DNA from: Rhodospirillales bacterium Ga0074136
GTDB lineage: Bacteria > Pseudomonadota > Alphaproteobacteria > Acetobacterales > Acetobacteraceae
Length of the DNA: 48,696 bases
Direction of reading: 5' to 3'
Assembly (NCBI GenBank): GCA_001464375.1
Contig: LNEW01000076.1
Location: 1 to 48,696, forward strand
The translations under genes were made by a program, and so were the position numbers. Positions 37,751-43,827 of this stretch are shown piece after piece. Every line of letters begins with the position of its first letter. The stretch's first letter is position 1. The notes under the pieces are model-generated. The model saw only the letters and a program-made list of their open reading frames with translations, searched no databases and was not told where the DNA came from.

Positions 37751-38917
37751 CTAGCCGGGCGGGGCGTCGGCGGCCCCCGGGCTTTCCGGGCCCCACATGC
37801 GTTCCAGGCGGTACAATTCGCGCGCCTCGGGCCGGAACAGGTGGATCACCAGGTCGCCGGCATCGATCAGGATCCAGTCGCCCGAGGCCTGGATGGAATC
37901 GCGGCGCAGATGAAGGCCGGCCTCGCCCAGCGCCTTGTCCAGGTGCGTCGCCATGGCCTGGAGTTGCCGCTCGACCAGGCCGGTGGCGATGATCAGGCGG
38001 TCGGCATAGTCGGCACGGCCGGTGACATCGAGCAGGATGATGTTCTCGGCCTTGTCGTCCTCGAGGCTCTTCATCGCGGCATCGACCAGCAGCGCGAGCC
38101 GGTCCGGGGCGAGTTTCTCGCGCTTCTTGGTGCGGGTGGGGCGCGGGGCGGCGGGCTTTGGCGTCGCCTTTGCCGGCGTGGGCGCCGCGGTCTTGGCGGT
38201 GGTGCGTGCCGGGGCCTTTTTCGCAGCCGGTGCCTTGGCGGTGCCGGAGTGGCCGGCCGATGCCTTGGCCGGGGCCTTCACGGCAGCCTCCGCCGGCGCC
38301 TTGGCGGCGCTGCGGGACGGCGCCTTCGCGCGCGTGCCGGACGTCGCCTTGGGCGCGGCGGCGCTGGCGCGCTTCGCGGCGGCAGGTGCCTTGGCGACCG
38401 CCGGAGCCTTGCGCGCGGGCGCGGGCTTGGCGACGGCAGCCTTTGTCGGAGCCGTCGCTGCCTTCCGGGCGGGTGCCTTGGCCGGGGTCTTGCGCGGGGT
38501 CGCGGCCTTGGGGGCGGCAGGCTTCGCCCGAGCCGCCGCGGGTGCCGCCTTGGGGGCATTGGACAGGGCGGCCTTGGGGGTGGCCTTCGTGGCCACCTTC
38601 GCCACGCGTGGCGTGGCGGGCTTCGGCGCGGCAGCCTTCACCTTCGCCGCGGCCGTCTTCGCCTTCGGCGCGGCCTTCGTGGCCACCTTCGCCACGCGTG
38701 GCGCGGCGGGCCTCGACGCAGCAGCCTTCACCTTCGGCGCGGCAACCTTCGCCTTCGGCGCGGCCGTCTTCGCCTTGGGCGCGGCAGCCTTGTCCTTGGC
38801 GGTAGCCGCCTTGGCCTTGGGCGCGGCAGCCTTGGCCTTGGCGGTGGCCGCCTTGGCCTTGGTCGTGGCCGCCTTGGCGGCGGGCTTCGTCGTCTCGGTC
38901 TTCGGCGTGCGGGCTAT
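37751..38917 (-). CDS. rsfS: Ribosome silencing factor RsfS with long Ala/Lys/Pro-rich N-terminal extension
   Basis: The C-terminal about 115 residues are RsfS ([77 protein letters not shown]). RsfS binds L14 and stops subunit joining in starvation. Before this lies about 270 residues of KAAAPKAK-type sequence resembling histone-H1-like or AlgP tails. The frame is open back to 38917, where AGGAGG stands 5 nt before an ATA codon that overlaps the nadD stop as ATAG. This is taken as the likely start, although the first conventional start is an internal GTG at 38731. The extension may bind RNA. Confidence 0.85.
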
Positions 38918-39540
38918 GGCCCCCTCCTGTCACGCGGGCCGCCCCGGGCCTTTGCCGCACGAATGGCGGTGGCGGAGGCGGCGTGCTCTCGCGCCGGAAC
39001 CAAGCACCAAGGCGCGTGCGGCGCAAACCTTTCCGCGCGGACCACCCCCGGCGCGCGGCGGTGCCGGCGCAGCGCCTGTGCCGCCTGGCCCTTCAAGGCG
39101 GGCCGCGTGAAGCCAGGCCGCGGCAGCACCGCCAGTGCCGTGCGCCGCGCAATCCCGCGCCACCCCTTCCAGCGCGGCAGTTGCAACAGGTTGTCGGCGC
39201 CGATCACGAAGGTGAAGTCCGCGCGCGGGAAGCGCTTGCGCAGCAGCCGCAGCGTATCGGCGGTGAAGCGCGTGCCCAGCGCGCGTTCGATGTCGGTTGC
39301 GATCACCCGCCGCCCATCGGCCATGCGCCGGGCGCTGGCCAGGCGTTCGGCCAGCGGCGCCATGCCCGCCCGGGGCTTCAGCGGATTGCCCGGGGAGACC
39401 AGCAGCCACACCTCGTCCAGCCCGAGCGCGCGCAGCGCCCGCTGCGCAACATGCAGGTGCCCCGCATGCGCCGGGTTGAAGGAACCGCCCAGCAGCCCGA
39501 TGCGCCGGCGCCTGGAATCGCCGAAGCGGCCGGGCGTCAC
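38914..39540 (-). CDS. nadD: Nicotinate-nucleotide adenylyltransferase
   Basis: A 208-residue protein starting at GTG 39540, which overlaps the upstream stop as GTGA. The nucleotidyltransferase signature LLGGSFNPAHAGHLHVAQRA (GSFxPxHxGH) is followed by LLVSPGNPLKPRAGMAPLAE and FVIGADNLLQLPRWKGWR. The C-terminal SATAIRAAK corresponds to the ISSTxIR motif. NadD makes deamido-NAD from nicotinate mononucleotide and ATP. The stop overlaps the presumed AUA start of rsfS; nadD-rsfS-rlmH is a common alphaproteobacterial order. Confidence 0.95.
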   Translation of the reverse strand: MTPGRFGDSRRRRIGLLGGSFNPAHAGHLHVAQRALRALGLDEVWLLVSPGNPLKPRAGMAPLAERLASARRMADGRRVIATDIERALGTRFTADTLRLLRKRFPRADFTFVIGADNLLQLPRWKGWRGIARRTALAVLPRPGFTRPALKGQAAQALRRHRRAPGVVRAERFAPHAPWCLVPAREHAASATAIRAAKARGGPRDRRGP

Positions 39541-40388
39541 CGCGTGCGGACGCTCACGCTGACCGGCTGCGGCGCGAGCCCCTCGTAGCGCACGGTGTAG
39601 GTCCTCCCCGCTTCCAGCGGCAGCGTCGGCGAATACCCCGCGACCGAGACCACCTGGCCGGCCTGCAACCGCAGCCCGTTGCGCGCGAGGTCCTCGACCA
39701 GGAAGGCGATGACGTTGAGCGGATGGCCCAGCGCGGCGGTGCCTGTCGCGCGGGCGCGTTCCTGCCCGCCGTCATCGACCATCGTCACGACCATGGTCGC
39801 CAGGCGATCGGCGAAGGCCTGCGTCGCCTCCACGGCAATGGGCGTGCCCATCACGCCAAGCCGCGCACCGACATTGATCGCGAGCAGGCTCGGCCCGGTG
39901 AAGCCCCCGGTGAGCACCAGGTCCGGCAACTCGATATAGGGGATCACCGCGTCGAGGTGGCGCAGGATGGCGACATGGTCGCGCCCGGCGGTGTTGATGC
40001 CCTCGTCGCGCACGCGCACCAGGAAGTCGCTCTCGATGACCGGCACGGCACCGAAGCGGGCCGGCACCTCGGCGCCGTCGCGCAGGCTGATGCTGGATTC
40101 GAACAGCACGCCGCGCAGCGGCTGGTTCACGCCGAAGCGCTGCTGCACCGGCGCGCTGGTCAGGCCGACCTTCCAGCCGACGATGCGGCCCCAGCTCGGC
40201 ACCAGTGCTGCGACAAGCCGGTCCTGCGCGCAGAGGCCGTCCTCGATCGACGCCAGGCCGGCGATCGGCGGGGAGGGTCGGTTCGCAACCAGCGCCTGCG
40301 CCAGGCTGTCCATCGTGGCCTGGGACGGGCAGGCGGCCTGCGCCGTCACGGGCAAGGCCAGCAGGGCCAGCATCAGCATTCGGCGCAT
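39537..40388 (-). CDS. Secreted hydratase-like protein (FAH/MhpD superfamily), catalytic residues mostly kept
   Basis: ATG 40388, with GGAGGAA about 8 nt upstream, gives 283 residues. A clear Sec signal peptide (RRMLMLALLALPVTAQAA) makes it periplasmic, which is unusual because 2-keto-4-pentenoate hydratases and fumarylacetoacetases are cytoplasmic. The body has GRIVGWKVGLTSAPVQQRFG (Lys73 at the usual position) and PLRGVLFE. The metal-ligand motif is IESDF (Glu119, Asp121; ExE in the family), followed later by IELPDLVL, NVGARLGVMG and LGHPLNVIAFLVEDL. Two Cys (20, 53) may form a disulfide. It pairs with the paralogue at 40521 and overlaps nadD (GTGA). Confidence 0.85.
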   Translation of the reverse strand: MRRMLMLALLALPVTAQAACPSQATMDSLAQALVANRPSPPIAGLASIEDGLCAQDRLVAALVPSWGRIVGWKVGLTSAPVQQRFGVNQPLRGVLFESSISLRDGAEVPARFGAVPVIESDFLVRVRDEGINTAGRDHVAILRHLDAVIPYIELPDLVLTGGFTGPSLLAINVGARLGVMGTPIAVEATQAFADRLATMVVTMVDDGGQERARATGTAALGHPLNVIAFLVEDLARNGLRLQAGQVVSVAGYSPTLPLEAGRTYTVRYEGLAPQPVSVSVRTR

Positions 40389-40520
40389 GGGTCGTTCCTC
40401 CGAGGGAGTGATGCTACCGGCGCGCCGGGGCGGACGGGAAGGGCGTGTCGGAGACCGCTTGGGAATGCCGGTGCCGGCCCGGCTCGGAATGCGCCTCACG
40501 GCGCAGTCTCAAGGGACCTC

Positions 40521-41300
40521 TCAGCGGAAATTCACCACCACGGCGCCGAGGCCCTCGACCGACAGGCGCCAGGTCTCCCCGGCGCGCGGTGCGATCGGCG
40601 CGGCGGGGCCCATCAGCGCCACCTGGTCGCCCACGCGCAGCGGCCGGCCTTCGGCGGCGAGGTCCCGCGCCAGGCCGGCGAGCAACGTGGCGGGCGGCGT
40701 GGCAAGGCCAAGCCCCGGCAGGCTGGCCGCCGTGCCGTGGTTCGCCTGCAGCGTCGCGCCGGCGTCCAGGGCGGCCACATCGTGCAGCGGCACCGCGGCG
40801 CCCACCACGCCCAGCCTGACGCCGAGATTGCCCGCGCGACGCGACGCCGCATCCAGGCCCGCCGGCATGGCCGCGAGGTCGAGCAGCACCAGGAAGGGTG
40901 CGACGGTGCCGACGTGCCCGCGTGGATCGGGCGCGCCTTCGGCGCCCTCGCGCCCGATCGTCAGCAGCAGGGCCGGTGCGATGGCGGGGCGCGCCGCGTA
41001 GCCGGCCTCGATCGTGGCGCCGGAGCGTTCGCGGAAATTCGCGTGGAACAGCGCACCGCGCAGCGGCGGCGCGACCTCGGCGGCGAGCACGATGCCCTCG
41101 ATGTCACCCCAGGGCTGCGCCAGCATGCCGGCCAGCCGCTGCTGCGCGCAGCCTGCATCCGTGCCGGGCGCGAAGGCCTGCGGAACGCGGCGTTCCAGCA
41201 ATGCTCGGGCGAAGTGCGCGACCTCCGCCAATTCCGGGCAGGCGGCCTGCGCCGGCGCGGCGGCGACCGCCAGCGCGAGCGCGGCCGCCGCGAGCCTCAT
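40521..41300 (-). CDS. Secreted hydratase-like paralogue, probable pseudoenzyme
   Basis: ATG 41300 overlaps the proA stop as ATGA, giving 259 residues. A signal peptide ([19 protein letters not shown]) is followed by the same plan as the neighbour: [62 protein letters not shown] and [12 protein letters not shown]. Both Cys positions (21, 51) match the paralogue. The catalytic Lys region is GIVLAAEV (no Lys), and the metal-ligand motif is AIAPALLL instead of IESDF, so both acids are gone. It may bind ligand without catalysis, or regulate or partner its active paralogue. The 132-bp gap to the next gene holds no gene. Confidence 0.8.
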
Positions 41301-42562
41301 GGCCGCGTCTGGCCGGTGCCGATCACCTGGTAGCGATAGGTGCAGAGCTGTTCGAGCCCGACCGGCCCGCGCGCATGCATCCGTCCGGTGGCGATGCCGA
41401 TCTCCGCGCCGAAGCCGAATTCGCCGCCGTCGCAGAATTGGGTCGAGGCGTTCCACAGCCCGACCGCGGAATCGATGCCGTCGAGGAAGGCGCGTGCCGC
41501 GGCGGCGTCCTCGGTGACGATCGCCTCGGTGTGCTCCGAGCCGAAGCGGCGGATGTGGTCGAGCGCCTGGGGCAGCCCGTCGACGACCTTCACGGACAGG
41601 ATGGCGTCGAGCCATTCGGTGCCGAAGTCGGCCTCCGTCGCGGCGGGCAGGTCGGGCACGATTGCACGCGCACGGTCATCGGCGCGGAAGTCGCAGCCGA
41701 GGGCGCGCAGGTCCGCCACCAGCAGCGGCAGCAGCGCGGGCGCGATGGCGGCGTCGATCAACAGCGTCTCGGTCGCGCCGCAGACGCCGGTGCGGCGCAT
41801 CTTCGCGTTCGCCAGCACCGCGCGCGCCATGGCCGGATCGGCAGCTTCGTGGATGTAGGTGTGGCAAAGCCCCTCGGCATGCGCCAGCACCGGTACGCGG
41901 GCTTCCTCCAGCACGCGCGTGACCAGGCCCTTGCCGCCGCGCGGCACGATCAGGTCGATCAGGCCGGCGGCGCGCAGCATGGCGCCGACGAAGCCGCGGT
42001 CTGCGGTGGGGGCCACCTGCACCGCCGCTTCCGGCAGGCCGGCGGCGCGCAGGCCCTCGGCGAGGCACGCATGGATGGCGAGCGCCGATCGCGTGCTCTC
42101 GGACCCGCCGCGCAGGATCACGGCATTGCCCGACTTCAGGCAGAGCGCAGCGGCATCCGCCGTGACGTTCGGCCGGCTTTCGAAGATCATGCCGATCACG
42201 CCGAGCGGCTGCGCGACGCGCCGGAACACCAGGCCGTTGGGCCGCGTCCATTCGGCCAGCACGCGCCCCACGGGGTCGGGCAGGGCAGCGACCTCCTCCA
42301 GCCCGACGGCCATCGCCTCGATGCGCGCCGGGGTCAGCGTGAGGCGGTCGCGGAAGGCCGCGGTGAGGCCGGGCGCGGCTTCGACATCGGCGGCATTGGC
42401 AACCAGGATCGTCGCCGCATGGCGGCGCAGCGCCGCGGCCGCTTCCGCCAGCGCCAGGTCCTTCGCCGGCGACGGGGCGCGCGCAATGACAGCGGCAGCC
42501 ACGCGCGCGGCGTGGGCTGCGGTGTCGAGAAGGCGGGCGGCGTCGGGGGCGATGGCGTTCAC
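41297..42562 (-). CDS. proA: Gamma-glutamyl phosphate reductase (glutamate-5-semialdehyde dehydrogenase)
   Basis: GTG 42562 with GGAGA about 10 nt upstream gives 421 residues, the usual length; the ATG frame at 42643 adds unrelated residues. Motifs include [56 protein letters not shown] and the catalytic-Cys region [20 protein letters not shown]-terminal [20 protein letters not shown] is also typical. It reduces gamma-glutamyl phosphate with NADPH in proline synthesis. proB is 1.6 kb upstream, separated by two unrelated genes, although the two are usually adjacent. Confidence 0.96.
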
Positions 42563-42662
42563 GGTCTGGGTCTCCGGGGCGCAGACGTATCGCGCCGCGC
42601 GCGCGGGGGGAAGCGCGTTGGCGCCACGATCCCTGGACGCCATGCCGCGCCGCGCGGACGCG

Positions 42663-43640
42663 CTAATCGATGCGGATGCCGCTCTCGCGGATGATGGGTT
42701 CCCACTTCGTGCGCTCGACCGCGAGCGCTTCGGTCATCTGCGCCGGCGTGCTCCAGCGCGGCTCCAGGCCGTTGCGGTTGAGCACCGCGGTCGCGTCGGC
42801 ATCGTTCAGCGCCACGCGCATCGCGGCGTTGATCCGTGCGAGGGCCGGCTCTGGCGTGCCGCGCGGCGCCAGCACCCCGTACCAGGACGGCACGTCGAAG
42901 CCTGGCACGCCGGATTCCGCGACGGTCGGCAGCTCGGGCATCAGGCGCGATCGTTCGGCGTGCGGCACCGCCAGCGCGCGCAGCTTGTCCTCGCGCACCT
43001 GCGCCAGGACGGAGGCTGCGGTGGCGAAGGAGAAGTCGACACGCCCGGCGAGCAGGTCTGTCACCACCAGCCCGCCGCCGCGGTAATGCACCGGCGTCGT
43101 CTCGATGCCGGCCATGCGGTCGAACAGCAGCCCCGCGAGGTGCGGCCCGCCGACAATGCCGCTGGTGCCGTAGGAAAGCCGCCCGGGCGCGGCCTTCGCC
43201 GCGGCCACCAGGTCGGCGACGCTGCGCCAGGGCCGGTCCATCGGCAGCACGAGGATGTTGAACAGGTCCACCGCAATTGAGATCGGCACCAGGTCGCGCG
43301 CCGGGTCGATCGGCAGGCGCACCACCATCGGGCTGACCACCAGCGCGCCGAGCGTCGCCAGCAGCAGCGTGTGGCCGTCGGCCGGGCTGCGGGCGACCAC
43401 CTCGGAGGCGATGTTGCTGCCGGCACCGGGGCGGTTCTCGACGATGACGGGCTGGCCCAGCGCCTCGCCCATCTTGGGGGCGATGGCGCGGGCGGAGATG
43501 TCGGTGGCGCCGCCGGGCGTGAAGCCCACGATCAGGCGCAGCGGGCGCGAGGGGAAGGTGTCCTGCGCGAAGGCGGGTGCGGCCAGGGGCAGGGCGCCGG
43601 CGGCCAGCAGGGCGCGGCGGCGGATGGCGTGGGTGGTCAT
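42663..43640 (-). CDS. TctC/Bug-family periplasmic solute receptor (third copy)
   Basis: ATG 43640, with GGGGAGAT about 8 nt upstream, gives 325 residues. A signal peptide ([18 protein letters not shown]) and the Bug core are clear: [58 protein letters not shown] and [20 protein letters not shown]. It is unaccompanied by TctA or TctB genes and is inserted between proB and proA. It is not closely similar to the two copies at 6055 and 9017, so it is not a recent duplication of them. Confidence 0.92.
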
Positions 43641-43827
43641 GGCGTGATCTCCCCGGGTCGATTGTCGTTGGCGCCATCTTCGCACGATCTGCCCGCGTGC
43701 CGAAACCGCGGCAGCTATGACGGCCATAGCGCAGGCCTATTGGCGGACGGAGCGTGACCAACCCAGCTGTTGTGGCGAAGTGATGGATAGGACGCGTCCG
43801 CCATCACCCAGAACAAGGACAACAGAC

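Follow-up and report, generated by a model that had tools for sequence, protein, structure and literature searches.

Two adjacent, predicted exported MhpD-fold proteins encoded between proA and nadD in Rhodospirillales bacterium Ga0074136: a probable enzyme and a conserved pseudoenzyme

Introduction

The closest described relatives of the two proteins reported here are MhpD, the 2-hydroxypentadienoate / 2-keto-4-pentenoate hydratase (PDB 1sv6/2wqt), the 4-oxalocrotonate decarboxylase (4-OD) NahK (5d2f/5d2i) and 8ih6, a decarboxylase-hydratase complex in which, as a precedent, two paralogues of one fold come together. According to an excerpt of PMC5480330, 4-OD functions in complex with VPH, and a partial text of PMC12718150 reports that the interaction of two enzymes of one pathway enhances decarboxylation. 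YisK and FAHD1, of the fumarylacetoacetate hydrolase (FAH) superfamily, can be aligned with our proteins only from about residue 66 on, so that the N-terminal part is not covered, and the partial texts describing them do not mention export. Here we analyze a window of 48,696 nucleotides, positions 1 to 48,696 of contig LNEW01000076.1 from Rhodospirillales bacterium Ga0074136, in which proA and nadD enclose two genes of the minus strand, one for an MhpD/NahK-like protein with catalytic residues (ACT; P0001, 283 aa; positions 39537-40388) and one for an MhpD-fold pseudoenzyme (PSE; P0002, 259 aa; 40521-41300), both predicted to be exported.

Results

Fold and Catalytic Residues

ACT and PSE align over 254 columns with 31% identity (E 3e-21). 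Structure prediction of each protein, proposed in an earlier sequence-only reading of this DNA, gave MhpD, NahK, HpcG and 8ih6 as the top Foldseek and VIA-align matches, and the predicted structures have the full-length fold of the MhpD/NahK/HpcG type including its N-terminal helical part. The best profile scores were those of NahK and 8ih6. Lys73 of ACT (codon at 40170-40172), Glu119 and Asp121 (Glu119-Ser-Asp121, 40026-40034) and Glu153 (39930-39932) align with the K/E/E/E of MhpD, NahK and the 8ih6 hydratase, Asp replacing the second Glu of the ExE motif, and all four are invariant in our alignments A1 and A2, the latter of 44 rows. The lysine and the three acidic metal-ligand positions are the catalytic residues of this family, and ACT has the complete set. 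PSE has lost all of them, with V/A, A, A/G and V/A at the four positions in 16 of 16 PSE sequences (V, A, A, V in the window). Most of the lid loop after the lysine (GLTSAPVQQRFGVN region) and the histidine of GHPLN are missing from PSE as well. The sequence-only reading had correctly listed Lys73, Glu119 and Asp121 as kept in ACT and lost in PSE, but had overlooked the third ligand, Glu153, which is Val in PSE.

Compared with MhpD, both proteins bear a predicted signal peptide and two cysteines, ACT has ExD instead of ExE, and in PSE the active site is gone. ACT reached 52-70 bits with the NCBIfam equivalogs catechol_dmpH, catechol_dmpE, PRK11342 and HpaH against cut-offs of 350-409 (60 bits against 350 for PRK11342), and PSE at most 19 bits. 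Pfam PF01557 (FAA_hydrolase) matched neither protein at E up to 1, and it matched 4 of the 44 members of A2 at E up to 0.01.

Export Signals and the Cysteine Pair

At the N-terminus of both proteins a short, basic n-region leads into a hydrophobic stretch and then AQA-A, followed by the first cysteine, in a Sec-like arrangement. The predicted signal peptides span 40335-40388 in ACT (MRRMLMLALLALPVTAQA) and 41244-41300 in PSE, where all 16 PSE sequences have a like start as judged by the crude hydrophobicity score used for all signal-peptide calls. The second cysteine lies about 30 residues beyond the first in both proteins (Cys20/53 in ACT, Cys21/51 in PSE). Among 128 profile-matched rows, both cysteines and a signal-peptide-like start were found in 94 of 98 ExD-type rows (Stella being counted twice, as L169 and L184, and L177 and L180, misaligned at an insertion, being left out) and in 11 of 11 PSE rows, whereas none of the 17 ExE-type rows had both cysteines and only one had a signal-like score. 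The remaining four ExD rows are L191-L193, which have no cysteine pair, and L189, which has internal stops. These features exceed chance, and export of both proteins, as claimed by the sequence-only reading, is likely because each has a predicted signal peptide together with the cysteine pair.

We also considered Cys20 as a lipoprotein cysteine and rejected it, as the cysteine lies well past the likely cleavage region in L109, L154 and L161, and the second cysteine is conserved. L191, L192 and L193 (G518, G293 and G421) form a variant branch of the exported family in which ExD is kept, the third ligand position is Asp and a long Pro-rich linker follows the hydrophobic start; in L219 (G518) the gene adjoins a hemB-like gene.

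Distribution of the Exported Clade

ACT is a member of an unnamed, predicted exported clade scattered in Pseudomonadota and marked in sequence by ExD in place of ExE, the two cysteines and a signal peptide. When 385 class-level genomes were searched with an ACT-type profile (cut-off 1e-20, up to six candidates scored per genome), 14 exported-clade matches, the ACT of the window included, scored 154-461 bits and no other hydratase exceeded 114, the only score in the gap being that of the window's PSE (127 bits). The clade is rare phylum-wide (8 of 398 genomes at E up to 1e-35, the window's own included), and members also occur in Stella, Dechloromonas, betaproteobacterial metagenome-assembled genomes and other Pseudomonadota. 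In a scan of named genomes, 80 loci were retained as the best of 504 candidates; the gene sits between proA and nadD in 61 of these 80, in some of them with an extra gene before nadD.

Within a sample of 250 genomes of the order, a catalytic exported gene of subfamily A (that of ACT) or B (that of PSE) was found in 47 at E <1e-60, 27 of them outside the genus of the window, Neoroseomonas. PSE orthologues (221-524 bits) were found in 16 of the 250 genomes, all of this genus, and the next best match of the PSE search was a catalytic gene with 157 bits. The 35 genomes of the genus divide into 16 with PSE, 17 with a single gene of another type and two without a match. The single-gene genomes are smaller (2.6-4.2 Mb), and K, E, D and E are all retained in the 16 of their 17 genes that were inspected, the seventeenth being that of G008.

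Some loci depart from the common layout. In L163 and L172, from small-genome relatives, a flavin monooxygenase-like gene lies between the hydratase-like gene and nadD, and in L061 (G147:C89) proA and nadD flank a tandem of ACT-type copies, the second of which is split over two frames. L094, at a contig end (G254:C25), holds a truncated homologue with the lysine kept and the lid loop apparently lost, possibly a second, independent degeneration.

Descent of the Pseudoenzyme

In our tree PSE forms one clade (support 100), which groups with the single genes and the second copy of Crenalkalicoccus roseus (SH-aLRT, a Shimodaira-Hasegawa-like likelihood ratio test, 99), apart from ACT. This tree leaves out most cytosolic rows, nine single-copy genomes of the genus that are near-identical and, from L061, the second, frameshifted copy; the tree used for the approximately unbiased (AU) test additionally leaves out all cytosolic rows, G049 and G050. 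The possibility that PSE is a recent tandem duplicate of ACT was rejected by this test (p-AU 0.00108, 37 log-likelihood units), which was run after inspection of the first tree, with a long PSE branch, and in which the 16 PSE were forced together with 11 of the 13 ACT of the genus, those of G004 and G017 being omitted since they branch elsewhere. Because of the tree grouping and the rejection of a grouping with ACT, PSE is most likely a dead end of the old subfamily B that lost its catalytic residues once, and not a spare copy of ACT. Catalytic members of subfamily B survive in related lineages.

The divergent ACT of G004 and G017 (L012 and L017) groups away from the other ACT of the genus while the PSE of these genomes does not, which suggests that the enzyme was swapped by gene replacement and PSE stayed.

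Selection on PSE and Its Pairing With ACT

PSE is under purifying selection. The pairwise ratio of non-synonymous to synonymous substitution rates (dN/dS) of PSE was 0.14-0.36 in 10 pairs, PSE-only genomes included; that of ACT was 0.10-0.55 in seven pairs, the highest value belonging to a pair with a divergent gene, and that of catalytic subfamily B genes 0.06-0.07 in three pairs. Sixty-five positions are invariant in the 16 PSE, 18 of which are rare (<10%) in 59 catalytic rows, including R104, A106, A108 and P109 on the former ligand strand. The description of the two proteins as one with catalytic residues and one pseudoenzyme stands, with PSE as a conserved protein that lost its four residues in every sequence and is kept by purifying selection.

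The two genes are not an obligate unit. ACT adjoins PSE in 13 of the 16 PSE genomes, while in G006, G021 and G022 PSE stands alone between proA and nadD, with no ACT-grade match elsewhere in these three genomes. Moreover, 27 sampled genomes of other genera have a catalytic exported gene but no PSE. The sequence-only reading had seen an active enzyme with an inactive partner and proposed a survey of whether the two always co-occur beside proA; these counts, together with the rejection of a recent duplicate by the tree, speak against that unit.

Gene Layout and a Promoter-Like Element

Read along the minus strand, the region runs from proA (42643-41297) through PSE (41300-40521), a 132-bp gap (40389-40520) and ACT (40388-39537) to nadD (39540-38914). 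The PSE start overlaps the proA stop by ATGA and the nadD start overlaps the ACT stop by GTGA. The coordinates, cysteines, catalytic residues and both overlaps given in the sequence-only reading can all be read in the DNA. Its proposal of co-translation is not supported for the pair of PSE and ACT, which have no mutual overlap and are separated by the gap with a promoter-like element, CTTCC-N20-TAGCAT (40411-40441, minus strand; relaxed pattern search), before ACT.

With the relaxed pattern, CTTCC-N16-21-TA(G/C)NNT, the element was recovered before 9 of the 13 ACT genes of the genus, 4 of 22 other ACT-type genes and none of the 16 PSE genes, with shuffled means of 0.01-0.02, although the shuffles overstate its significance because the motif was first spotted by eye. 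The stricter first pattern had been found in 0 of 13 ACT of the genus and 3 of 22 others, and the spacing was widened after it failed. With these reservations, ACT probably has a promoter of its own, with PSE following proA.

Discussion

Interpretation and Alternatives

From the sequences, predicted folds, distribution, phylogeny and selection described above, we infer a cellular location, a disulfide, a bound metal, a chemistry and a role for PSE, in a reading that we favor by a small degree. ACT would be a periplasmic, metal-dependent enzyme acting on 2-oxo or enol acids, and PSE a separate periplasmic protein, derived from once catalytic subfamily B, with a non-catalytic role. ACT would fold in the periplasm around a Cys20-Cys53 disulfide, bind a divalent metal through Glu119, Asp121 and Glu153, and hydrate, decarboxylate or tautomerise a small 2-oxo or enol carboxylate before its uptake, in an enol/keto chemistry assisted by the metal. 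In the ancestor of the Neoroseomonas group PSE would have lost the lysine, the three metal ligands and the lid loop, keeping the fold, the export signal and the cysteines, and it may now have its own non-catalytic role in the periplasm, with or without ACT. More tentatively, and with less than even confidence, an exported MhpD-fold enzyme subfamily could have been converted, on a single occasion, into a periplasmic binding protein or scaffold that bears a disulfide and has a patch of small, conserved residues where the metal site used to be. The pseudoenzyme would then be the part that is kept, because among the 16 genomes of the genus with either gene all have PSE but 13 have the neighboring enzyme.

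Several observations weigh against the interpretation of ACT as a periplasmic enzyme and PSE as a separate protein. The signal-peptide calls come from a crude score, L191-L193 carry ExD without the cysteine pair, and the stem branch of PSE is long (1.06 changes per site) and could distort its placement in the tree. Moreover, G021 and G022 are near-identical, so that the PSE-only state most likely reflects two losses of ACT and not three, and the neighboring genes vary across lineages and point to no pathway.

The most serious alternative, which we nevertheless regard as unlikely, is that PSE is a regulatory or structural subunit that tunes or stabilises the enzyme in a periplasmic ACT-PSE hetero-oligomer. 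Such an assembly is possible by analogy, because precedents exist in the VPH/4-OD complex and in 8ih6, the best structural match of ACT, which by its title joins a decarboxylase to a hydratase and in which both partners have this fold; the enhanced decarboxylation of PMC12718150 would be a further one. Moreover, all 13 genomes of the genus with a subfamily-A ACT have PSE beside it. In 8ih6, however, both partners are named enzymes, whereas of the two paralogues here one is devoid of catalytic residues, and either can be found alone. PSE without ACT is still under purifying selection (dN/dS 0.14 for G021/G022 and 0.17-0.19 for the G006 pairs), and the catalytic genes of the 27 genomes of other genera do without PSE. 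The divergent ACT of G004 and G017 next to a normally grouping PSE and the separate promoter-like element of ACT also argue against this alternative, so a hetero-oligomer cannot be the whole reason for keeping PSE.

The other alternatives appear weaker. That the substrates of ACT are 2-keto sugar acids produced by oxidation in the periplasm, as happens in acetic acid bacteria, and not products of aromatic ring cleavage seems improbable to us. It is still more improbable that PSE is what remains of a decaying subfamily B gene. The loss of every catalytic residue, the long stem branch and a dN/dS above that of the catalytic B genes would fit decay, but no PSE of the 16 has a stop inside the match, G006, G021 and G022 miss the enzyme and not PSE, and PSE does not look like a relic because its dN/dS is well under 1 and 65 of its positions are invariant. 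Finally, signal peptides that are artefacts of wrong start codons, with both proteins in the cytoplasm, would be compatible with the use of a crude score in place of an export predictor, but we give this very little credence, as the start pattern and the cysteine pair recur together in nearly all ExD rows and every PSE row and not in ExE rows.

If ACT is indeed a periplasmic enzyme and PSE a separate exported protein, a whole exported branch of a family regarded as cytosolic would suggest that 2-oxo/enol-acid chemistry takes place in the periplasm, in a branch that is mostly missed by Pfam and whose member ACT falls far below the NCBIfam cut-offs. PSE would be a natural experiment, with a single loss of catalysis, live catalytic sisters in neighboring lineages and genomes with the dead copy only, and the role of a pseudoenzyme without its enzyme is therefore testable. 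A literature search of titles and abstract openings, covering mostly papers outside subscription, retrieved none on exported MhpD-type proteins or on a pseudoenzyme of an MhpD-type family, in agreement with the sequence-only reading, which had called such an exported pair, with a conceivable ligand-handling or sensing role, undescribed.

Genomic Neighborhood

The upstream neighbor proA (41297-42643; NCBIfam NF001221, E 7.6e-164) and the downstream neighbor nadD (38914-39540; NF000843, E 7.2e-76) lie on the minus strand, as does a Bug/TctC-type solute-receptor gene upstream of proA (42663-43727, identified by eye), a possible functional neighbor. A homologue of this receptor is present in 44 of the best 80 named loci, and all 12 Acetobacteraceae loci without proA have a Bug/TctC gene upstream on the same strand (about 2.7 kb away in L155). 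Receptors from different lineages are, however, only 29-51% alike. In Stella, a Liv-type ATP-binding cassette (ABC) operon was seen by eye directly upstream of the hydratase-like gene. A nearby receptor and the Stella operon would suit an enzyme that acts on a carboxylate just before its uptake, but the Bug/TctC linkage is only suggestive as functional evidence because such receptors are very common in these genomes (54-216 first-look candidates per genome in 22 Acetobacteraceae genomes, at most 68 being scored).

No aromatic ring-cleavage context was seen among the neighbors in the loci read by eye. Outside Acetobacteraceae the neighbors, identified by eye, include hemB-like, nitrile-hydratase-like, quinone oxidoreductase/short-chain dehydrogenase (SDR) and iron alcohol dehydrogenase genes, as well as the Liv-type ABC operon; in L232 the hydratase gene is missing from the gene calls. 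In L134, L150, L154 and L161, from Pseudoroseomonas-type genomes, a Bug receptor, the hydratase-like gene and a hisF-like gene replace the proA-nadD order. In the window itself, the gene after nadD (37751-38731, minus strand, putative start codon) appears by eye to be RsfS-like, with a very long Lys/Ala/Pro-rich, histone-H1-like N-terminal extension.
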